From Amphiura filiformis (taxonomy: Eukaryota; Echinodermata; Ophiuroidea; Amphilepidida; Amphiuridae): a DNA stretch of 64,000 bases. The stretch lies in contig NC_092628.1 of the NCBI RefSeq assembly GCF_039555335.1, forward strand, positions 73,286,713 through 73,350,712. Reading direction: 5' to 3'. Position numbers and translations under genes: made by a program. The first letter of the stretch is position 1; each line of letters starts with the position of its first letter. Of this stretch, positions 3,960-59,500 are shown piece after piece. The notes below the pieces were generated by a model. That model did no database searches. It was given only the letters and a program-made list of their open reading frames with translations, and had not been told where the DNA came from.

Positions 3960-5345
3960 GTTTCTCTTATGCTGCTTACTGCTCCCTTAACCGGCTTGGT
4001 CGTCGGGGCACTGATGACATCTTAACAATCTCTCTCCATCTGTTCCCATCTTCCATTGCCCTCTGAGAGGTGGCAAAGTTCAGGCCAGTCCATTCTTTTA
4101 TGTTGTCTTCCGGCACATCTCTTTTTCTGTCTTCCTCTTTTTCTTGAACCATTCACTGTACCCTGTAGTATTGTCTTTGCTAACACAGAGGAGCGGACGT
4201 ACCAACGTAGTTTACGTTACCTGACTGTTGTTAGTAGGTCGTCATAGGGACCGATATCTTGCTTCACCCTGGTTCGTACCTCCTCGTTGGTCACATGGTC
4301 CTTATATGAGATGATGAAGATTTTACGAAAGCACCTCAACTCCAGTGCTTGTACTCTCCTTTCCAGGTCCATGATTCGCAAGCATACAGTAAGATGGATA
4401 TGGCGAGGGTACGCATTAGTTTGATTTTTGATCAAAGAGAGATGTTCTTGTCATTCTACAATGGCTTTAATTTTGCCATGGCACTGGTTGTTTGGGTGGT
4501 CCTGGAGAGCACTTCAGGTTTTCAGCCGTCATCTGATATCATCGCACCAAGATATTTGAAGTTGGTTACTGTGCCTAACATTTGCTCACCTATTTCCACT
4601 GCTTCCTGATGGATACGGTTAGTCATCAGCTTGGTCTTTTCTGTGCTTATTTCCATTCCATACCTCTTAAGCCCGATCCTGATTCCACATCGCAGCGCGA
4701 TGCGATGCTGTAAAAACTGTAATCTGAGCCAGGTTTTTACGAGCTCAGCGGTGAAAATTCTCATCTCGCGGTGGAAATTTTGGTCCGCGAAAAAGTTGAA
4801 CAATGTTCAACTTTTTCGCATCGCGCTGCGATATCGCAGCCGTACACGCTTCTGATTGGCTGCTGGAAAATCAAGGTCGGTAGAATGACCTTAAAAGGAG
4901 ATGCAGACCCCACATACTTTTAAAACATCGCAACATCGTGCGATGAAATTAAAATGTACATTTTAATTTCATCGCGAGATGCTGCGAGGTTTGAAAAGCA
5001 TCGCAGCATCGCATCGCGCTGCGAAGTGGAGTCAGGATCGGGCTTTACGGTGAGGTTTGATGGAGATTCTCACTGCCAGCTAAGCCATCTATATCATCAG
5101 CAAAGCGAAGATTTGATATGCTGACTGTTCCCTCATGGTGCATTAGCCACGATTCTTTCAAGGAATAAGTTGAAAAGCGTTGGTGACGGTAGGCATCCTT
5201 GTCTATCCCCCACTCTTAACGACGTTTCTCTTAACATCTTATTAAAAAGGCCGTATAGTGAGACAATAGCATCTGTTTACAGATCGTTGTTGGTATCCCC
5301 CAACAGCTTCTGTTTAGGCTTGTCTCCGTGATGGAGCATTCTTTC
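3960..5345 (-). pseudogene. 5'-truncated non-LTR retrotransposon (reverse transcriptase remnant)
   Basis: Minus-strand translation gives recognisable pieces of a LINE reverse transcriptase. From right to left there is a palm segment RQGCLPSPTLFNLFLERIVA (about 5215-5155), the catalytic box FADDIDGLAGSE (about 5120-5060), then MEISTEKTKLMTN and FKYLGAMISDDG (4660-4525). The C-terminal part has LERRVQALELRCFRKIF and DHVTNEEVRTRVKQ (4370-4250), with a basic GRQ-type stretch near 4130. The reading frame is broken by frameshifts and by a MITE insertion at 4671-5043. No endonuclease domain is visible, so this is a dead 5'-truncated copy. The motifs fit RTE/CR1-like elements; the exact clade is uncertain. 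Confidence 0.8.
4671..5043. mobile_element. MITE inserted in the LINE
   Basis: Inverted ends begin GCCCGATCCTGA and close TCAGGATCGGGC. They extend inward for about 40 bp with the CATCGCAGCGCGATGCGATG motif repeated and inverted several times. TTAA lies on the left and TTTA on the right, compatible with a mutated TTAA duplication. The LINE reading resumes on both sides, so the MITE is the younger insertion. Confidence 0.75.
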
Positions 5346-11560: not shown

Positions 11561-11819
11561 TTAACCCTAGAACTACTAACCCCCTAAAATTTTTTATTGT
11601 CATATTTGCCCTGGCTGAAATTTGATACACTTTTGATACACCACTTTTGATACGTATGAAAAATGTATGAAATAAAAGGCTTTGAATTGGAACCCTCATT
11701 TCATACACTTTTAGGTATCAAAACTGTATCAAATTAACATTGCATACACATTTTATACATATCAAAAGTGTATCAAATGCCAAGATAATGTATCAAAAAA
11801 GTATCAAATGAAATGTATC

Positions 11820-13980
11820 CTTTCATTTCATACATATTTGATACATAATTATATCAAAAGTGTATCAAATAAGTAACTGTATCAAATCAGGGTTCCAATT
11901 TAAACTGTATCAAATTTTCGTTGAAATTGTTATCCTTTCATTTCATACACATTTCATACATAATTTATATCAAAAGTGTATTGAATATGTTACTGTATCA
12001 AATCAGGGTTCCAATTTAAACTGTATCAAATTAACATTCAAATTTTTATCCTTTCATTTCATACACATTTCATACATCATTTATATCAAAAGTGTATCGA
12101 ATATGTTACTGTATCAAATCAGGGTTCCAATTTAAACTGTATCAAATTAACATTCAAGTTTTTATCCTTTCATTTCATACACATTTCATACATCATTTAT
12201 ATCAAAAGTGTATCGAATATGTTACTGTATCAAATGAGGGTTCCAATTTAAACTGTATCAAATTTGCGTTCAAATTTTTATCCTTTCATTTCATACATAT
12301 TTCATACATAATTATATCAAAAGTGTATTGAATATGTTACTGTATCAAATGAGGGTTCCAATTTAAACTGTATCAAATTAGCATTGAAATTTTTATCCTT
12401 TCATTTCATACACATTTCATACATAATTTATATCAAAAGTGTATTGAATATGTTACTGTATCAAATGAGGGTTCCAATTTAAACTGTATCAAATTAGCAT
12501 TGAAATTTTATCCTTTCATTTCATACACATTTCATACATAATTATATCAAAAGTGTATGAAATATGTAACTGTATCAAATCAGGGTTCCAATTTAAACTG
12601 TATCAAATTAGCGTTGACATTTTTATCCTTTCATTTCATACACATTTCATACATAATGTATATCAAAAGTGTATCGAATATGTTACTGTATCAAATCAGC
12701 GTTCCAATTTAAACGTATCAAATTAGCGTTGAAATTTTTATCCTTTCATTTCATACACATTTCATACATAATTTATATCAAAAGTGTATCAAATATGTCA
12801 CTGTATCAAATCAGGGTTCCAATTTAAACTGTATCAAATTAACATTCAAATTTTTATCCTTTCATTTCATACACATTTCATACATCATTTATATCAAAAG
12901 TGTATCGAATATGTTACTGTATCAAATGAGGGTTCCAATTTAAACTGTATCAAATTATCATTGAAATTTTTATCCTTTCATTTCATACACATTTCATACA
13001 TAATTTATATCAAAAGTGTATCGAATATGTTACTGTATCAAATCAGGGTTCCAATTTAAACTGTATCAAATTAACATTCAAGTTTTTATCCTTTCATTTC
13101 ATACACATTTCATACATCATTTATATCAAAAGTGTATCGAATATGTTACTGTATCAAATGAGGGTTCCAATTTAAACTGTATCAAATTTGCGTTCAAATT
13201 TTTATCCTTTCATTTCATACATATTTCATACATAATTATATCAAAAGTGTATTGAATATGTTACTGTATCAAATGAGGGTTCCAATTTAAACTGTATCAA
13301 ATTAGCATTGAAATTTTTATCCTTTCATTTCATACACATTTCATACATAATTTATATCAAAAGTGTATTGAATATGTTACTGTATCAAATGAGGGTTCCA
13401 ATTTAAACTGTATCAAGTTAGCATTGAAATTTTTATCCTTTCATTTCATACACATTTCATACATAATTATATCAAAAGTGTATGAAATATGTAACTGTAT
13501 CAAATCAGCGTTCCAATTTAAACTGTATCAAATTAGCGTTCAAATTTTATCCTTTCATTTCATACACATTTCATACATAATTATATCAAAAGTGTATGAA
13601 ATATGTAACTGTATCAAATCAGGGTTCCAATTTAAACTGTATCAAATTAGCGTTGACTTTTTATCCTTTCATTTCATACACATTTCATACATAATTTATA
13701 TCAAAAGTGTATCGAATATGTTACTGTATCAAATCAGCGTTCCAATTTAAACTGTATCAAATTAGCGTTGAAATGTTTATCCTTTCATTTCATACACATT
13801 TCATACATAATTATATCAAAAGTGTATCAAATATGTCACTGTATGAAATCAGCGTTCCAATTTAAACTGTATCAAATTAGCATTGAAATTCTTATCCTTT
13901 CATTTTATACACATTTTATACATAATTATAATCAAAAGTGTATCAAATATGTCACTGTATCAAATCAGCGTTCCAATTCT
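11820..13980 (+). repeat. 116-bp satellite array, about 18 copies
   Basis: The unit contains GGTTCCAATTTAAACTG, a variable GTATCAAATTAGCATTG segment, TTATCCTTTCATTTCATAC and ATATCAAAAGTGTAT. The start of the GGTTCCAATTT word falls at 11891, 12007, 12123, 12239, 12354, 12470, 12584, 12700 and 12815, giving periods of 114-116 bp. Open frames through the array repeat at exactly 924 bp (11860 with 12784, 12092 with 13016), which marks an eight-unit higher-order repeat. Frames here are satellite translation, not genes. Confidence 0.92.
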
Positions 13981-33214: not shown

Positions 33215-33703
33215 GAACTCAGTCCTCAATGATAGTCACTTAATCTTTTGGTCGATTTACTCGAGAACTCTAGCTTCGAATTTGCACACGATAGTTACGC
33301 ATTCGATGCTAGAGTGCGTTACTATCGTTTTTCGGTCGGACAGCGGTGCAAGTTTTTGCACCGGAGGTTATTTATTCTGTTAATGTTAAAACTTGGATGA
33401 AAGTTATTTCGATATGTCAACTTAACTGTACCTTTCCAGCAAGCTGCAAGGTTGCATATTTTGGACAGTCTAAAATTTTGTTGAAGTGTAATTTTAGCAA
33501 CATTTTTGATGCAATCGCTTGTCGTGATCGGCTATATTTACTTCTGCACTTCCATTGCTAAAACACGGTGTCACGCTCCAGCGAATCCGACTAGATTGTG
33601 AATGCAATGGTCTCTAGCCTAGAATGTGAAGCTATCGGTGAGCAAATTCTTGGCTGGACTTCTCGAGCTAGTCGTTATAAACTATCATTTGAGGACTGAG
33701 TTC
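33215..33703. mobile_element. inverted-repeat element, uninterrupted copy
   Basis: GAACTCAGTCCTCAATGATAGT at the left is inverted as ACTATCATTTGAGGACTGAGTTC at the right. Interior blocks (TACTCGAGAACTCTAGCTT, TTATTTCGATATGTCAAC, AAGGTTGCATATTTTGGACAG) recur at 43140-43690, where another MITE has landed inside them. Confidence 0.65.
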
Positions 33704-33750: not shown

Positions 33751-34132
33751 ATAAGCTAATTCGATAATTCAGAACAGAGTGCATTGTGGGTAATATTCTT
33801 GGCCAGTATTGGGGATATAATAACACAATCCTCCCATAGACGGCTGTGGGAATGGACTTTGACCGATCGGGAGTTCTTGTGATTTTATTTGCCATTTACA
33901 TACATGTACAACGTTGGTACTTCCAAGGTCTTTGTATGTTTGTATCTTTGTATGTTATATAAAAGTTCTATGAGGACAATCAGACCCAACAACTTGCCAA
34001 AAAAAAAACTCAAAAAGGTTTTTTGAAAAGTGCAAAGTTCGTCACCATTGAAATACTGTGAGGCCTGGCTGTGATATCCCAACAGACTTTTACCCACAAT
34101 GCACTCTGTTCTGAATTAGCGAACTTGCTTAT
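33751..34132. mobile_element. MITE with about 40-bp inverted ends
   Basis: AATTCAGAACAGAGTGCATT then GTGGGTAA on the left is repeated inverted without mismatch on the right (34089-34116). Imperfect pairing extends out to ATAAGC / GCTTAT. Confidence 0.85.
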
Positions 34133-34339
34133 TGGGGCAGAAGTTATCTTTTGAATTCTTTCATGACCGGCACTGAAGCATAGTCATGCCTGTCAAGGAC
34201 ACTCGGCGTGAATTGAAAGACCATGTACATGTAACTTGCCACAAAAGAATGTCAAAGGTCATAAGACACCAATTTGGTATACTTCCGCGCCTCGGAATAT
34301 GATGTTTAAGGTTTAGGACTAGCTAAGAAATTTTCTTGA

Positions 34340-35339
34340 AGATATTTCGATTTATACCGGAAGTGACCCCTTAATGACCTTTGACCCGAAATCTGTGTAC
34401 ACCCCATAGACACTGGATAATAACAATGCATGTGTGCAAGTGGCGTCTCTGTCCCACATAATTTGTGGAAGAAGATGCATTTTAAAGGTATTTCATTTTA
34501 TACCGGAAGTGACCCCTTAATGAGCTATGACCCCAATTTAAAAAATACCACATATACATTGGATGACTGCAGATCATATGTGAACATACCGTTACTGTGC
34601 TATGTTTTACTTAGCTAATAAAAATTTGTGAAGGTTTTTCGTTTTATACCGGAAGTGACCCCTTAATGACCTTTGACCCCAAATCTGTGTACACCATATA
34701 GACACTGGGTAATAATGATGCATTTGTGCAAGTGGCGTCTCTGTCCCACATAATTTGTGGAAGAAGATGCATTTTAAAGGTATTTCATTTTATACCGGAA
34801 GTGACCCCTTAATGAGCTTTGAAAAAAAAAAAAAAAAATACCACATATACATTGGATGACTGCAGATCATATGTGAACATACCGTTACTGTGCTATGTTT
34901 TACTTAGCTAATAAAAATTTGTGAAGGTTTTTCGTTTTATACCGGAAGTGACCCCTTAATGACCTTTGACCCCAAATCTGTGTACACCATATAGACACTG
35001 GGTAATAATGATGCATGTGTGCAAGTGGCGTCACTGTCCTACGTAATTTGTAGGAGAAGATGCATTTTGAGTTGAAATCACGTTTTTGACCCCTATGACC
35101 CCTGCGTGACCTTTGACCCCATAAGTTTCATGTGACATGTAGGGGCACGGTCAATGATCATTGTGACCAAGTTAGGTCTAAATCGATGTAAGCGTGTGAG
35201 TGCTAGAGCAAATGAAATGGTTGACAGAAGAAGAAAGAAAGAAGAAAGAAAAAAGAAAAAAGACACAGCCGTGACTAACGTCACGGCTGTGTAAGAACTC
35301 TAGAAAAAGACACAGCCGTGACTAACGTCACGGCTGTGT
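34340..35339 (+). mobile_element. tandem-repeat element ending in two perfect hairpins, copy 1
   Basis: About five units of roughly 146 bp, each with TTATACCGGAAGTGACCCCT, TTAATGACCTTTGACCCC and a TGTGTACACCAT block, are followed by a unique tail, an AAGAAAG-rich stretch, and ACACAGCCGTGA-CTAACG-TCACGGCTGTGT (35263-35292). That hairpin is then repeated once more (35310-35339). The 5' end is worn. The element matches the one beginning at 51521. The arrangement (tandem repeats, purine stretch, terminal hairpin) recalls non-autonomous Helitron/Helentron elements, but no Rep/helicase is present and the class is inferred. Confidence 0.7.
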
Positions 35340-35344
35340 AAAAA

Positions 35345-36590
35345 ACAAATTATCTTTTTACCGTCCCGGCAGTGTTATCAATGCAGTAACGACAGCCAAG
35401 TTGAATTGCGTTTAATATAGAGGGCGCTATTTTTCTTGGTAACTTTTACCCCCCTAAAAAGCTGTTTAAACCGCCTGTTCGTCGGGTTTGAAGGTTCAAA
35501 TGTTCCTCAGAGACCATTTTATAATTTTCTAAATCAATTTGGAATCGATAACCAATCAAATCAAGAAATTTGTAAAATGAGCCAAAATTGCTTAAAAAAC
35601 TGGTTCTTATCGATTTTTATACAAAACACTACAGCTAAAATATGTCTTGATAGATTTTTACACAATCTTCATAGTTTGGTTCTAGATAGATGTGATAATC
35701 CGTGGAAGTTATATTACATGGGTGCAGATGTGAATTGTTACGTAATAAAGCTGTAATATGTCCAAAAAACAGTTCGCGCATGCGCAAAATGCCCAAAACA
35801 GCGTTCAAAATTTAAATTTAAGCACAATGGAAATATGATTTTAAGTACAAAAGGTTGCAGGGTTATCGTCCAATATGCCTAACACCCAAATTCGACGATT
35901 GCTGAGGTTTAAATAGCTTTAAAGTGAGATATGGAGCCAAACAAAAAAGCCGTTCTGTGGCGTCATTTTGGCCAATTTAAGTGGTCTTACGGTATATAAA
36001 GTTCCTACTCAGATTTTGTGCTAATTTGGTACCTATTTTATCAATTAAGGTTAAGTTAAATTTAGGGTTTAGCGTGCTGAAATGTGAATGGTTACATAGA
36101 CCCTAAGCGTGGTCAGCATACCTGGGTGTTTTAAAACGTCGAAGTTCAAGGACAAGGTGGGTTGACTTGATTATAACATTTCCATGGCGCGCGTCGCATC
36201 TTATAATAGTCACATAGAGTGAACCAAATTAGCATGATCAGGCAGCGGCGTTAATATCTGTCTTGGATGGTGTGGGTAGGGGTGGGGTCATTATCTATAG
36301 GTATATTAGTGTCTCAGTTGCTCAATAGCTCAGTTTGCCAAAAGTTGTGTGTGGGGAGAGGGAAAAGAGAATGTCCCCCATGAGTGATGTCCATGTGTGT
36401 GTTGTGGGTACACCGTGCACTTCCCATGGAGAGGGGAGGAAATGAGCCCCGGCCCGGCTCGTTGAAGGTGGCACGGGGATGTGTCATGGTTTTGGGGTGT
36501 ACCTTTTCAGCAAGTTTGGTTTGTATCACTCTATCGATAGGTGGGTTTTCAGTGGAGACCAGGGGGCCCCACTTTTGTTGGTCATTTGGG
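35345..36590. other. no recognised feature
   Basis: A 106-codon frame at 35436-35756 has no family resemblance and no splice context that I can support. Confidence 0.4.
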
Positions 36591-43139: not shown

Positions 43140-43690
43140 CCAGTTATCAGTGCTCTTACTCGAGAACTCTAGCTTGGAATTTACATTAAAAAAAAAAAAA
43201 TTTGCAACACAAAATCATTTTAAATATTCTGTTGATCTTTAAATCTGGATTACCGTATTCATTCCAATAAACGCCCATGCCCCAATAAGCGCCCACTAAG
43301 GGTATTTTCAATTTGCTAAAGGGTACCATTAATGTTGAAGTGACAGATAGATGTAGTCCTGCAGCTATTTCACTGTATCAACAAGTCCTGCAGAAACTTG
43401 CAATACATTTTCTACTCAGAAAAGCTACTAGAACGTCTCGGGACCCTTTTATAATAATACGAAAATTTGTCTTTAATAAACAAACGCCCCTTAATTATTA
43501 GGAAAAAATAGGTAAACAAGGTAAAAAATAAGCGCCCATCCAAACTGACTTTGTTAAGCGCCCTGGGCGCTTATTGGAATGAATACGGTAGTTATTTTGA
43601 TGTGTCAACTGTATCTGTTAGAGCAAAGGTTGCCTATTTCAGACAGTGTCATTTTTGATCACTCCCAGAGTAGCTAAATTCTCAGACAGG
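43140..43690. mobile_element. second copy of the 33.2-kb element, split by a MITE
   Basis: TACTCGAGAACTCTAGCTT on the left and TGTGTCAAC...AAGGTTGCC...CAGACAGT on the right align with the interior of 33215-33703. The alignment is interrupted exactly by the MITE at 43253-43588. Confidence 0.55.
43253..43588. mobile_element. MITE with CCGTATTCATTCCAATAA ends
   Basis: CCGTATTCATTCCAATAAAC at the left and TTATTGGAATGAATACGG at the right are inverted and flanked by TA on both sides. GCGCCC-rich sub-terminal repeats (AAGCGCCCA) lie inside both ends. A 62-codon frame inside is not conserved with anything I know. Confidence 0.88.
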
Positions 43691-50565: not shown

Positions 50566-53500
50566 GTAAGTACACTTAGCTAGTTAATATTAATAATGAT
50601 AATTTAGTATGCCATTTAAATTAGTCAATGGGTGATGTTTTAAAGTAACCTGTTTCACCACCAGAAAGTAAAAGCGCCGTGTGTTTCTCAATGTCGATGT
50701 TCTACGTGTGATTTTGTTGGATAGTTTGATTAGTTGACCAGATTCACATAATCATAAGTCATTTATACCATGTCGGTTATTCCAAATGATTGAAAGCAAA
50801 CAAAATGATTCAGTTGCAACATTTGTTTGTTTGGATAACTTGCTTACATAATTATAACTTTCTTGCTTGCTTCACTTTGGGTTTAAATGCCTGTTAATCA
50901 CTGTTGTTCAAGTGTTAGTCTGCAATTTAATAATTAGTGATATTAAGTTGATAACAATTACTGAGCCTACATTATAATCACGCGCAAAAGTAAACATATT
51001 TGTGTAAATTTTTCCTAAAAGTGCTGTATCTCACGTCCCCACATATTAATTTTTGATATTAAAATTTTGAATTTTTTTAAATTAAGTTTTGTGTGACGCT
51101 GATGAGCTTGGTATGCAGAATGGTTTAATTGAAAACAGCCAAATCACTGCATCATCATATCGTTCAAGGAGTCGCACCTTCGATCCGTGGCGAGCCAGAC
51201 TCAACAACCCAACGGAACTTAGGTATTGGCGACCCGCGTCTGACGCAATATCAAACTCATGGATACAAGTCGATTTCTTAGATACGGTGATTGTAACAGG
51301 GATTGAGACTCAGGGCAGTGGAGATGAAAATAAGGCTAAGAGATGGGTAACAACATTTCAAGTGCAGATTGGAAATGAAACCTCAAAGACTTATATCACG
51401 GATGGAAGCAATCCTAAGGTAACGGGAAGATTTTTTTTTTAAATTTAGAGAAACTTATTTTACTACGTATGTCAGCAAGTTCAACTTTCTTAGGTGCATT
51501 ACACATCAAGATAAAACAAAAACTAGACTTAGCTGTGGTCTAAGACCACGAACACAGCCGTGTTGTGACCTCTTAATGACCTTTGACCCCAAAATATATG
51601 AAAGCCCATAGGCATTGGCTAATGTCAATGTATGCGTGCACGTGGCATTATTTTGCCATGTTATTTGTGGCAGAAGGGGCATTTTGAAAGTTTTTCGTCT
51701 CAGACCGGAAGTGGCCCCTTAATGACCTTTGACCCCAAATCTGTGTACACCCCATAAACACTGGGTAATAACAATGCATGTGTGTAAGTGGCATCACTGT
51801 CCTGAGTAATTTGTGGGAGAAGATGCATTTTAAAGGTATTTCGTTTTATACCGGAAATGGCCCCTTAATGACCTTTGACCCCAAATAAAAAAATATCATA
51901 TATACATTGGTTAAACACAATTCATGTGTGAACATACCATTACTCTCCTATGTTTTTCTTAGCTAATAAATGTGTTTGAAGATATTTCAATTTATACCGG
52001 AAGTGGCCCCTTAATGACCTTTGACCCCAAATCTGTGTACACCCCATAGACACTGGGTAATAACAATGCATGTGTGCAAGTGGCATCTCTGTCCCACATA
52101 ATTTGTGGAAGAAGATGCATTTTAAAGGTATTTCTTTTTATACCGGAAGTGACCCCTTAATGAGCTTTGACCCCAATTAAAAAAAAATACCACATATACA
52201 TTGGGTAACTGCAGATCATATGTGAACATACCGTTACTGCGCTATGTTTTACTTAGCTAATAAAAATTTGTGAAGGTTTTTCGTTTTATACCGGAAGTGA
52301 CCCCTTAATGACCTTTGACCCCAAATCTGTGTACACCATATAGACACTGGTTAATAACAATGCATGTGTGCAAGTGGTGTCACTGTCGTACGTAATCTGT
52401 AGGAGAAGATGCATTTTTAGTTGAAATCACGTTTTTGACCCCTATGACCCCTGCGTGACCTTTGACCCCACAAGTTTCATGTGACGTGTAGGGGCACGAT
52501 CAATGATCATTGTGACCAAGTTAGGTCAAAATCGATGTAAGCATGTGAGTGCTAGAGCAAATGTAATGGTTGACAGAAAGAAGAAAGAAAGAACTAGATC
52601 TGGTTACAGATCTGGACCTAGCCGGGGCCGGAAATGCCAGTCTTATCTTAAAGTTTGACCTTTGACCGGCTATTATGGACATCCGTCTTCCATAGGCTGA
52701 GATGCAGCTACTTTTCCGTAATTTTAAACATTTTTGGCAAATTTGACGTTTTGACCTCCTTAATGACCTTTGACCCCAATATAAAAAAAACCTCATATAC
52801 ACCGAGAAAATGCATTGTTACAGTTTAAATTTAAAAAAATCTACTATGCTTAGTTATGGAGATAAAAATTCTTAAAGTTATTTAGCTTAAAACCGGAAAT
52901 GACGTCTAAATGACCTTTGACCAAAAAAAATAAAAATACCGTGCATAGGCCCCTACATCGGGTAACACTAATGCATATATGAAGTTTGTGTCACTCTGGT
53001 CTGGTTACGTTTTGAGATATAAAAAAATGAACATATTTGATGATTTTTGATTTTTGACCGGAAGCGACCCCTTAATGACCTTTGACCCCAAAACTGTAAG
53101 CACCCCAAGGACCCTGGTTAGTAGCAATGCAAGTGTGTTAATGACAACACTCTGCTATGTAATTTGTAAAAGCAGTGATTTTTTGAATATTTTTAGCTTT
53201 CAGACCGGAAATGACCCCGTTAATGACCTTTGACCCCTTATCTGTGAACACCCTATAGACACCGACCAAAGTCAAGTCACATGACCTAAGCATGTCACCA
53301 TCACATGTTATTTGTGGAAGAAGAAGCATTTTAGAGTAAAAATCGCATTTTTGCCATTGTGAGCAGGTCAAAGGTCAAATGGAGTTCAATGTCATGTCAC
53401 ATGTGGGGACATGGTCAGTGGTGTTTGCGACCAAGTATAGTCAAAATCGGTCAAAGCATAACAGAGCTAAGGCGAAACGTGGCAAGTCACTCACGTGTTG

Positions 53501-56500
53501 CCAGAAAGAAGCAGAAGAAAGATCCGATAGCATCACAAGACCTAGCCGGTGTCCCGGCTAGGTAACTAGATATATTGCATCCTCAGAAGGCTGCGAAGTC
53601 CAGCCGTGACCTTGAAGTGACCTCTTATGACCTTGAAAAGATTTGTAACACAATTGCCTTTTCGTGAAAAATGTTGGCATTACGTTTGATAACAATCTAT
53701 CTAATAAACTAATTTGACCTTTGTTGACCTCTGATGACCTTGAAATGACCTCCATTTTGTTTGAAATCATATCAATATTACACATTCTAATTTAGACTTA
53801 AATTGGACGAATTTTGGAATTGGACTCATTTTGACCTTTGGTTGACCTCTGGTGACCTTGAAATGACCTCCATCATATTTTGAATCCTACCGTGATTACA
53901 TATACTAATTTTCATTTGAATTGGGCAAATTTCAAAATTTTACCCCTTTTGACCCCAAAACAGACCCCTCCCCTTGTTCAAGCCAAATCTGATTATATCC
54001 CTATATACATCCAATGCTATAGTCATTTTGGCATTATTCTGATGATCATATGCAGGAAAAAGTGAACTTTAAGGTGATTTTCAGTAATCAACCCTATTTT
54101 ACCCCTTCATGACCTTGAACTCAAAATCCGTGTTTACCCTATAGACACCAGCTAATGTCAGTGCATATGTGTCAATCTCATCTCTGTACTATGTAATCTG
54201 TAGGAAAAGAAGCATTTTGAAAGTATTTGGTTATGTGCAGAAAAAAAACCCTAAATGACCTTTGACCCCAAATCTGTGTTTACCCCATAGACCCCAACTA
54301 TAGTCGATGCCGATGACCAAGTCTCATTGCGCTACCATGTAATCTGTAAAGAAGAAGCATTTTGGTAAAAATCGCATTTTAGCCAAAATTACTCATGCGT
54401 GACATTTGACCCCAAATGGGTCATGTCAAATGTAAAGGCTGGGGTAGTGGAGCCTTTGCCCAAGTTTGGTTAAAATCGGTCAAATAATTAGGGAGCTAGA
54501 GCCAATTATGTCAAATGTTGACAGAAAGAAAGAAGAAGCAGAAACCGCTGAAAAACAGAAGTCCAGCCGCCGCTCGGCTGGACTAAAGAACCTGTAAGAA
54601 AAAAGACACAGCCGTGACTAACGTCACGGCTGTGTAACAAAAAACAGCGTCATAGCGTTAAACAGTTTAATTTATGCATAAGATAAATATAAGATATAAA
54701 AAAAATTAACAATTTCCCTGCAGTACTCGTTTCCAGAACAGATTATGTTGATATCTTCAGTAGACAGCATAATGTCTGATAGCTAAATGGTGTTGTGTTA
54801 AATACATAAATGCGTTGCTATCTCCAGAAGATAACATAAAGTCTGATCGCTATGTTTGGGTAAATACATGAATGTGTTGCCATCTTCAGTAGATAGCATT
54901 ATATCTGATAGCTATGTTGTGTTAAATACATGAATATATTGCTATCTTCAGTAGATAGCTTAATGTCTGATAGCTATGTTTTGTTAAATACATAAACATG
55001 TTCCTATCTTCAGTAGATAGCTTAATGTCTGATAGCTATGTTGTGTTAAATACATGAACATGTTGCTATCTTCAGTAGATAGCTTAATGTCTGCTTAATG
55101 TCTGATAGCTATGTTTGGTTAAATACATGAATATATTACTATCTTCAGTAGATAGCTTAATGTCTGCTCAATGTCTGCTCAATGTCTGATAGTTGTGTTT
55201 GGTTAAAAATGAATATATTGCTATCTTCAGTAGATAGCATTATGTCAGTATAGCTATGTTGTGTTAAATGCATGGATATCTTGATATCTTCATTAGATAG
55301 CATTACCTGATAGCTATGGTGTCGGAGGAGAGCATGACCTAGCAATGTTTGCACTCAAATACATTGAAATATTGAGACAAATAAAATTGAGAAAAGGAGA
55401 TCCCAAGGCTTGATATAACGGGATTTATTTCTGCCCGATGTGTATGATTTTTCTGGGGCATACAAAACTTTCGTTTTAATACATTATTGAATATAGAATG
55501 ATTTAAACAAAAGCAAGAATAACACCACATAAATACTTTCGTATTGGTCAGTAGTACATTGTGAATGGTAAAAGCACAGAATTTTTCCTCCAAACAACCC
55601 ATTCGTGCAATATTGTTGGATTGATTTCATCAATAATACTTAGCAATGCTTTATGGTATTTGAATGAAAAATCTAGGACTTGGTATATTAGTAGGTGAAA
55701 ACAACAATCTATAAATGGTTTTCTTGTTTTGAACAACCCTGTTTGTTAAAGGAATTGCTCAAAATTTTCAGAGTCTCTCTTTGGTTGCAGCCACACGTTA
55801 ACAACCTCGAAATTGTATGGGAATTATACCCACCCTCTTTTTTGCGACATTAAACCATTGGAACTTTACTCGGTCCAATCATTATTTATATGAAAATGTT
55901 GATTATTTCTTCCAGGTTTTTTCAGCAAACACAGATATCAATTCCATCGAAAGAATAACATTCCCGCAAAGAGTCCGTACACGGTATTTGCGCATCTTAC
56001 CAATAGCATGTCACAACAAATGTGGATTGCGTTTTGAAGTTCTTGGTTGCCGACTGATTGATGAATGTATGTCACGCAATCATACGGATCAATGTGACAC
56101 CAATGCTGAGTGCCACGATCAGGATGACGGCTTTCACTGTACATGTCATCCAGGATACTTCGGAAACGGCACCCATTGTGAAGGTAGAGTATAATAGTGA
56201 TACAATCAAAGTCACAATAAACTGTGTTAAAATTACTAAAATTATAGTAATATCTTGATATATAAATAGTGCTTGGCAAGAAATTTATATTATTACTGAG
56301 TATCGTCTTACAGTGGAAAACCCGTTGATTATTATTTCACAGATATCAACGAATGTTCTCCTAACCCTTGCCTAAATGGAGGGACTTGTAAAGATGAAGT
56401 CGATTCTTATAACTGTAGCTGTGTTGCAGGATTTACAGGTGTCATGTGCCAAACAGGTACGTCATTAAGATCAAATGTTGAATGGCTGTTGGGGCAACAC

Positions 56501-59500
56501 AAATTAAAGTACAAAATAAAACACATAGACAACACGTTTATAATTATTCATATGGAATAAGTTATACTTCTTTCATCTCGCCTAGTGGATACCCAAGACC
56601 AAACTTTTAATCGAAATGGTGAAACATATTCTTATGATTTATGGCTAAACATATTAAAAACGAATGTTCTTCAAACACCTGCCTAAACGGAGATACTTGT
56701 AGAGATGATTATAGCTGTAGCTTTGCTGCGGGGTTTACCGGTGTTAAGTGCCAAACATGTATGTTTAATGCAGGCTTATACGAATTCATCGCTGAAGTTC
56801 AAATAAAAATTGCTGTTAGGGCAAGACGAATAAAAGTAAAAAATAAAACACATAAACGACACGTTTACAATTATTCATAGGGAAAAGTTATATTTCTTCG
56901 TATATCATTAGCTCCCTTCGTGATTTTGTTGAATTAACACTAACTTTTCTTCCACCTAAAAAAGAATGAGCGTAAAAGTTGAGGTTTCCGTCAACTAAAA
57001 CGCCAAGAAATGTTATATAAATCTTTCAAATAGTACTCAAAATTAACAAATCAAACATCAATGTTTCTAAATGTTCTTTTAATATTCATTTTTGTTTTGT
57101 AGCTATAAATCATTTATCCACTGAAAAGCCAACCCCGTCAATATTTGCACCACCATCAACACAAATAACTGGAGAATACAACCCTCCACAATTCACAAAA
57201 AGAACAGGTAAGGAATTATTCGTACACACGAAAATACATCAGTATAGCGTTATCGGAGCATGGAGCACGTCCTGACATCGAAGTGAACGGAAGAGTTTAA
57301 TTGACAATCGACGAAAAAAGCCATCGGATAACGACTCTGACTTTAAGTTGTGTTAAATAATATAAAATTCATTTCATATATTATATTTATATGAAATATT
57401 TCTTTCTAAATTTCACCTTTCATACGATTGAACCCGCTTAAAATGTCAGTGTGAAGGAACAATTCCTACGATTATGCAAAACTGTCAGGACAGCTGGTAA
57501 TGTGTTAAGAGACTTTAAACACTCCCACTTTCGGGGGTGACACATATAGGGTTTTTTCGCTCAGGTACACCTGAGTGAATATATACATTCAGTTTAGACC
57601 TTGAAATTAAACTTGACCCTTGAACCTAAGTAGCTCTAAGTCGAGCTTCTTTTGCAAATGCTCTTGCTTTGTAATCACTAAAAATATTTTGTAGAATAAT
57701 GCATGGTATCTCAGTAATAGAAATGCACTAAATGCAGACTACTGCCAGCTCCTAAAATAACCTCACTCCTCATGACATAGTTCATAAATATATGCAGCAG
57801 TGAGATTTCTAGTTTGAGGTGGGGATAGGATATTAGCCTCATTCCACATGAAATTATTTATAAACTGTGTTCTGTAGCCCATAGTGGAGGGTTTTGTTAC
57901 CTGGGAATGATAATCAGTTTCAATATTATGAGTGTTGACAGATTGATAGTGTAGTGGTCTGGAAGTTGAAGTTGAAGTTTAATAACAAGTTACAAACTGT
58001 CCATGAACAGATTTTGTTTTATGGACAAAGTCAGCTAGCTAGGTCAGCCTGCATGCAGAGGATGATTTAAGCACTTCCCAGCAAGTCTTGCGGTTAGCAC
58101 AGCTGTGTGAGTGAACACGACACCACTGCCGCCCACTGCATACACACGTGCATGGTTAAATTTGAATTTGGACAGATATATTTACAGTAAAAACACCTTC
58201 TAGAGGTTGGTCGATTTCACATTTTATGTTATATACAGGAGGTGTGAATTATTCTTCATGCATACATCACTTTAGATCTGAAATCGACCAAGAAATAATG
58301 ACACACGGGCAATTCTAAAACAACATCTTTTGCACAGAGTTCAATGGGATTTGAAAAGTAAAGTGGCAGTTGAAACTCTAGTGATAACACTTTTACAGTG
58401 CATGATGGGGCTTCCTTAAATCATCCTCTGGCCTGCATGGTCAATTATACCAAGTTACCAAATGTCCATGAACTTCTTAAATTTGCTTAAATTATTTATT
58501 TTTTTTGAAAAAATTATGCATTGGTGATAAAGTGTGTAATATTTAAATTGTATTATTTAGATCGTTAACATGTACAACTTAAACTTTACTTTTTTATTTT
58601 CATGGGTAACATTCAAGTGCATAGGCCTACATCACTAAATGTGACATAATATGTTAAAGGAGTATTTCACAATCCTATAGCATCCACTTTTTATGACATT
58701 TGTCAGTAGATATCCAGGAGCAAAAGCTTAAATCTCACAACTTCAGTTGATCAGATTGTTTGTTTGCAAGAATAAAATAAGCATGTACGCTTATCAATCA
58801 ACATCAAAATTGATGAGTACTGGTATCATTTTGATACAGCCTCTATGTGTATTTATATGCCCCATATGCCACTTGCTGTGTTGTAATTTGGCGAACAAGT
58901 TTGACGATATGCTTGCTAAACGAATTAATCGGCAAGAATTATTGTATACAGAAACAGTTCTGCCAGAGTTTTCCAGTGGTATAAAAATGATAAAAATCTG
59001 AATATTTCTGTACAAAGTGTGGATCACGGAATGCCCCTTTCAAATTATGTTGAATTGATGTCCAAATTAGTGCACATCATTGAAATTACATACATGTTCG
59101 TAAATTACATTAGTATAACTTTGGGTTTACTTTTCATTACCATTTGTATATATTACATGTACATGTTGAAGTGTTTAAGGGGGTACTACACCCCTGTGGT
59201 AAATTTGTGACTATTTTTGTATTTTTCTCAAAAACTAAAAACACACTGGTAACAAAAGTTATGTATATTATTGGGGCAAGGGATCCAATTACTACGCTGA
59301 AATTTCCGTGACTCAATATGATAGGAAATGAGGTACATCCTAGCGGTACCTCATTTCGTATCATAAATAACGAACCGCTTGTCTTGGGTCACTGAAATTC
59401 CAGTGTAGTAATTGGATTCCTTGCCCCTATAATATACATAACTTTTGTTACCAGTGTGTTATTAGTTTGTGAGAAAAGTGCAAAAACAGTCACAAATTTA

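Follow-up and report, generated by a model that had tools for sequence, protein, structure and literature searches.

In a 64,000-nucleotide stretch of the genome of the ophiuroid Amphiura filiformis (hereafter the window), three elements lying together in one intron raise the question how the two ends of a mobile element can differ from those of its neighbours and still agree with each other. A preliminary description of the locus claimed that in each element a short word near one end is identical to the arm of a hairpin at the other end, and proposed that both ends are recognised as a pair, for instance in Helentron-like transposition, or that one end is copied from the other.

Matched ends of this kind have been described in the Helitron2/Helentron group of rolling-circle transposons. 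In Helitron2 elements the distance between ATIR and element end is 0-2 bp on the 5' side and 20-30 bp on the 3' side, compensatory ATIR changes are reported for two related elements, and a model has been suggested in which pairing between the 5' and 3' repeats opens the 5' hairpin and fixes the end point (Bao and Jurka 2013, PMC3627910). HINEs, which are non-autonomous Helentrons, such as HINE-Mo of a mite and DINE-1, are portrayed as having palindromic subTIRs and TT or T-rich targets (PMC4067079). For the oyster Cg_HINE, the order given is a 5' subTIR with a complementary inverted repeat (IR), a microsatellite, tandem repeats, a 3' subTIR and a palindrome, and oyster HINEs are stated to carry element-specific changes in subTIR and IR (PMC7492417).

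Results

The host gene is recognisable by a split F5/8 type C domain, of which the open stretch 51086-51436 matches profile positions 1-82 of 127 (Pfam, E 2.3e-12) and 55802-56191 the rest, positions 85-127, at an E value of 0.00066 that is below Pfam's cut-off. Since the domain is split between these two stretches, the plus-strand gene that contains them has an intron in between, and the intronic location claimed for the three elements holds, the halves of the domain flanking 51436-55802. An EGF domain is also present in 55802-56191 and another one in 56300-56557 (Pfam). A 62-84 bp tandem array was called at 54744-55246, about 110 bp beyond the intron element (TRF).

The pairs of words and hairpins were found where they had been reported (Table 1). 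The arm of a perfectly self-complementary stem, of 13 bp in A, 10 bp in B and 10 bp in C, recurs in each element as a third exact occurrence at 0.9-3 kb from the hairpin, the words being ACACAGCCGTG in A, ACCTAGCCGG in B and AGTCCAGCCG in C. DNA fold energies of the three hairpins are -16.5, -12.0 and -12.1 kcal/mol, respectively, and for each of them 0 of 200 shuffles was as stable as the real hairpin. The words also differ between elements and share an AGCCG core, as claimed: in this set of three families with one two-ended copy each within the window, own pairs match over 11 (A), 10 (B) and 10 nt (C) from the terminal base, versus 1-2 nt in all six cross pairs between the ends of A, B and C. 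An uninterrupted 10-mer, CAGCCGTGAC, is common to the 5' stem of A and the 3' copy of C, and because the inner part is shared in this way, it is chiefly the outer 4-5 nt that covary.

What had to be reversed is the orientation. The hairpin, previously taken for the 3' terminus, is the 5' end of the element on the minus strand and stands directly after TT, while the supposed 5' word belongs to the 3' end as a subterminal inverted repeat; further outward come a second hairpin (weak in C) and the terminus TCTAG. TT directly precedes five of five 5' hairpins on this strand, those of A, B and C and two in the related element D. The 5' hairpin, with a stem of 10-13 bp, lies within 0-4 nt of the putative 5' end in each of A, B and C; at the other side, 29 (A), 22 (B) and 31 nt (C) lead from the inverted copy to the 3' end, where TCTAG is followed by TT in all three. 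Nor are the words the boundaries of the elements, which lie 22-31 nt outside them. The tail hairpin measures 6 bp in A and 7 bp in B (AGATCTG-TAAC-CAGATCT, with the end TCTAG before TT) and is imperfect in C (3 bp, mismatch, 3 bp); by energy these tail hairpins are weak, 19 (A), 5 (B) and 30 (C) of 200 shuffles folding as well. The minus strand of all three elements reads TT, palindromic 5' repeat, AGAAA-type run, inverted 3' repeat, tail and TCTAG. In place of the canonical Helitron 5' features we found a 5' TT|A with hairpin and T-rich flanks, and the canonical 3' CTRR end is present as CTAG in three of three elements. This anatomy fits well with the Helentron-like paired-end recognition that was first suggested, of which orientation, boundaries and a missed nesting (see below) need correction. 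A, B and C are very probably non-autonomous rolling-circle transposons of the Helitron2/Helentron type (HINE-like) that occupy the minus strand of the intron.

Table 1. Elements A to D and their parts, in positions of the window
Feature	Position	Strand	Remarks
Element A	51523..54635	-	3113 bp as it stands; non-autonomous Helitron2/Helentron-like; from both ends and similarity to D
A 5' palindromic subTIR/ATIR hairpin	54606..54635	-	13-bp stem, loop GTTA, after TT
A 3' subTIR/ATIR	51552..51562	-	repeats the outer 11 nt of the 5' stem in inverted form
A 3' tail	51523..51551	-	29 nt; hairpin GTGGTC-TTA-GACCAC and terminal TCTAG
A central tandem repeats	51565..52417	.	unit of about 146 bp with TGACCTTTGACCCC (TRF)
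Element B	52594..53563	-	970 bp
B 5' hairpin	53540..53563	-	10-bp stem
B 3' subTIR	52616..52625	-	
Element C	53566..54584	-	1019 bp; TCTAG end at 53566
C 5' hairpin	54560..54584	-	10-bp stem
C 3' subTIR	53597..53606	-	
Element D	34319..35339	-	relative of A, without 3' subTIR; far (34319) boundary uncertain

TT flanks all three elements on both sides, and inspection of their junctions by eye also suggests direct repeats of 7-8 bp: AACAAAAA around A, AACTAGAT around B and AAAGAAC around C. Such repeats would suit plus-strand DDE MITEs with terminal inverted repeats (TIRs) and 7-8 bp target site duplications, the right TIR being palindromic by chance, and they count against the Helentron reading insofar as HINEs are reported without target duplication in the accounts of PMC4067079 and PMC7492417; the Chlamydomonas CRe Helitron2 elements, according to their description, do have target duplications. 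Nevertheless, we consider MITEs improbable. If these were genuine duplications, the left word would be found 16-30 nt within the element and the repeats would not be terminal; relative to the CTAG boundary the left copy lies 22-31 nt inside. Moreover, the direct repeats around A and C consist of A-rich, low-complexity sequence, and the duplication of B would split its tail hairpin and remove the TCTAG end common to A and C.

Base composition does not account for the pairs. In 300 simulated windows (order-2 Markov), structures of this type, defined as a hairpin with a stem of at least 9 bp and a loop of up to 12 plus a third arm copy no more than 4 kb away on either side, averaged 0.14 per window with a maximum of two, compared to five places in the real window, namely A, B, C and unrelated repeats at 36587 and 43555; as this null holds no transposons or tandem arrays, it excludes base composition only. 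A relaxed structural scan was swamped by tandem arrays (at least 498 plus-strand rows), and a strict one was used instead, in which 22 hairpins with a stem of at least 8 bp and a loop of 3-12 were examined in either orientation. An exact inverted 8-mer was present 150-6000 nt downstream in 13 rows (several of them stemming from one hairpin), and CTAGT followed within the next 45 nt in three of these 13; the three correspond precisely to A, B and C, each on the minus strand. One could still regard the end words as internal repeat units, shared by chance or gene conversion and without a terminal role, given that AGCCG occurs in all of them, that the 5' stem of A shares 10 nt with the 3' copy of C and that a hairpin with a third copy also arises from the unrelated repeats at 36587 and 43555. 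This is very hard to credit, since the outer 9-nt words are nearly confined to the ends of their own element within the window, the two exceptions being the hairpins of D (A word) and one inverted 9-mer of the C word at 33652, and no end word of A, B or C falls in a tandem array.

The missed nesting becomes apparent from D, which is 91% identical to A over 910 bp (BLAST) and lacks an insertion at the place that C and B occupy in A. Once A is joined across C and B, its alignment with D continues over the AGAAA-rich run and on into the hairpin, which identifies C plus B as an insertion in A; by subtraction, A without them is about 1.1 kb. C is inserted in the AGAAA-rich run of A, and the 5' end of B lies 2 bp after the TCTAG at the 3' end of C. 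Alternatively, B could be read as lying inside the last 6 nt of C, with AACTAGAT as an 8-bp duplication; we prefer the TT reading, in which the tail hairpin of B stays whole and all three elements share the TCTAG end. D itself has two identical 5' hairpins (35263-35292 and 35310-35339, 47 bp apart). Its similarity to A in BLAST stops within 1 nt of a cryptic CTAG (34319-34322), where D may end, and weak similarity to A may continue beyond. The doubled hairpin of D and its lack of a plus-strand left end would also be in line with plus-strand non-LTR or SINE-like retroelements with a 3' hairpin tail, D being 5' truncated and the hairpin a tail repeat, but this is the least credible explanation of all, as a TCTAG left boundary with an inverted arm copy and a second hairpin at the left end is not expected of such elements.

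As to the interior of the elements, TRF called tandem arrays with units of about 146 bp in A and D and with a 118-bp unit (1.9 copies) in C, and none in B, which shares a repeat unit of the A/C/D type at about 65-77% identity (BLAST). By eye, AGAAA-type runs adjoin the 5' hairpins of A, B and C on the inner side; TRF called such a run only in D. The literal word TGACCTTTGACCCC turned up in the accessible text of a paper on a fish sex marker. The elements contain 16 exact plus-strand TGACCTTTGACC motifs (34375-35107 and 51577-54256), a word that we take to be a DR1-type nuclear-receptor site (GGTCAAAGGTCA); judged by sequence, the elements could scatter candidate DR1-type sites.

No Rep/helicase or transposase was found in the 20 ORFs (84-155 aa) that were scanned against Pfam among the 155 listed window ORFs of at least 70 aa. 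Interior patterns of the elements gave 0 matches in a viral contig and a genome contig collection, and a search of the entire window against Rfam at gathering scores likewise gave 0 matches. A permissive Rfam scan of 51001-55000 produced two matches (E 0.12 and 2.1) that fall far below gathering scores and are taken as chance, for which reason a ribozyme reading was given up.

Next to these elements, the window contains several other repeats. A separate short element at about 43252-43590 has terminal inverted repeats (ACCGTATTCATTCCAATAA...) and repeated TAAGCGCCC words, and it also yields a hairpin plus direct copies. An inverted pair around TTCAGAACAGAGTGCATTGTGGGTAA at about 33768-34118 appears by eye to be another short inverted-repeat element, near D. 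At 11816-13978, TRF called a 116-bp tandem array of 18.7 copies with 94% matches, from which related TTTGATACACT-type repeats continue to about 15650. Finally, a long perfect hairpin is found at 4787-4819, with a 15-bp stem and, in one register, a loop of 3; no other exact copy of its outer 9-mer is listed in the window.

Discussion

Compared by description, A, B and C are like HINEs in the order of palindromic 5' subTIR, microsatellite-like run and 3' subTIR and, as regards the oyster HINEs, in element-specific changes of subTIR and IR; a 3' palindrome (weak in C) and a T-rich target are putative further likenesses, and the central tandem repeats that the descriptions of HINEs mention are clear in A and shorter or more diverged in B and C. 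A proto-Helentron is described with a 5' TT and a 3' CTAG, which the TCTAG of A, B and C resembles, and with insertion between A and T, which differs from the putative T-rich insertion here (PMC4067079). Set against Helitron2 elements as published, no Rep/helicase was seen here (20 ORFs) and the 3' hairpin of C is weak. Canonical Helitrons are unlike A, B and C insofar as they are described as starting with TC, inserting between A and T and being without a 5' hairpin (PMC4067079, PMC3627910). One of them, Helraiser, resembles the present elements in its 3' hairpin and CTAG end; experiments and a model are reported in which this hairpin acts as terminator, cleavage takes place at CTAG and circles are formed (PMC4778049).

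A further parallel is offered by Fusarium oxysporum, where FoHeli1 and FoHeli2 are reported to have different 5' stem words, each of which recurs inverted near the 3' end, just as the family-specific hairpin words of A, B and C do (PMC5148889). In one example two FoHeli4 elements are separated by 2 bp, like B and C here (PMC5148889), and joined ends have been reported for a Fusarium element. The end word of C, AGTCCAGCC, resembles the stem words AGTCC of FoHeli2 and CAGCC of FoHeli1, a likeness of 5 nt only (PMC5148889). The FoHeli elements that are described differ in encoding a transposase, in the termini TCAG...ATTTT of FoHeli1/2 and in their insertion site (PMC5148889).

By analogy with these systems, we infer that the pairing, terminator and circle models would apply to A, B and C as well. 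A Rep/helicase from a putative autonomous partner would nick at the 5' TT, peel off one strand and come to a halt at the 3' end, the 3' repeat there being able to pair with the 5' arm. The small tail hairpin would pause the helicase before the cut at CTAG, and the product, probably a circle, would join a T-rich target. The left arm would need to fit two partners, its own right arm and the 3' repeat, so that a change would be tolerated only if all three places change, and with such a constraint end words would come to differ between families and yet match within each.

Such concerted variation of the two ends is a known feature of an established group, of which A, B and C appear to be a fresh example. 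The copying of one end from the other, proposed earlier as an alternative, does not need to be invoked, because covarying end repeats have already been published for the Helitron2/Helentron group. A more speculative and rather doubtful proposal is that the end repeat consists of a fixed AGCCG core, which the transposase would read in every family, and an outer 'address' of 4-5 nt that is read by strand pairing only. If this were true, a family could split off by swapping the outer bases at three places while keeping one partner enzyme; the nested layout of elements in the same orientation, one of them 2 bp from the 3' end of another, would fit a shared enzyme. With three matched-end families at one locus, the intron provides natural material, in compact form, for finding out whether pairing of the ends, and not protein recognition alone, chooses the ends that are joined by a Helitron2/Helentron enzyme.
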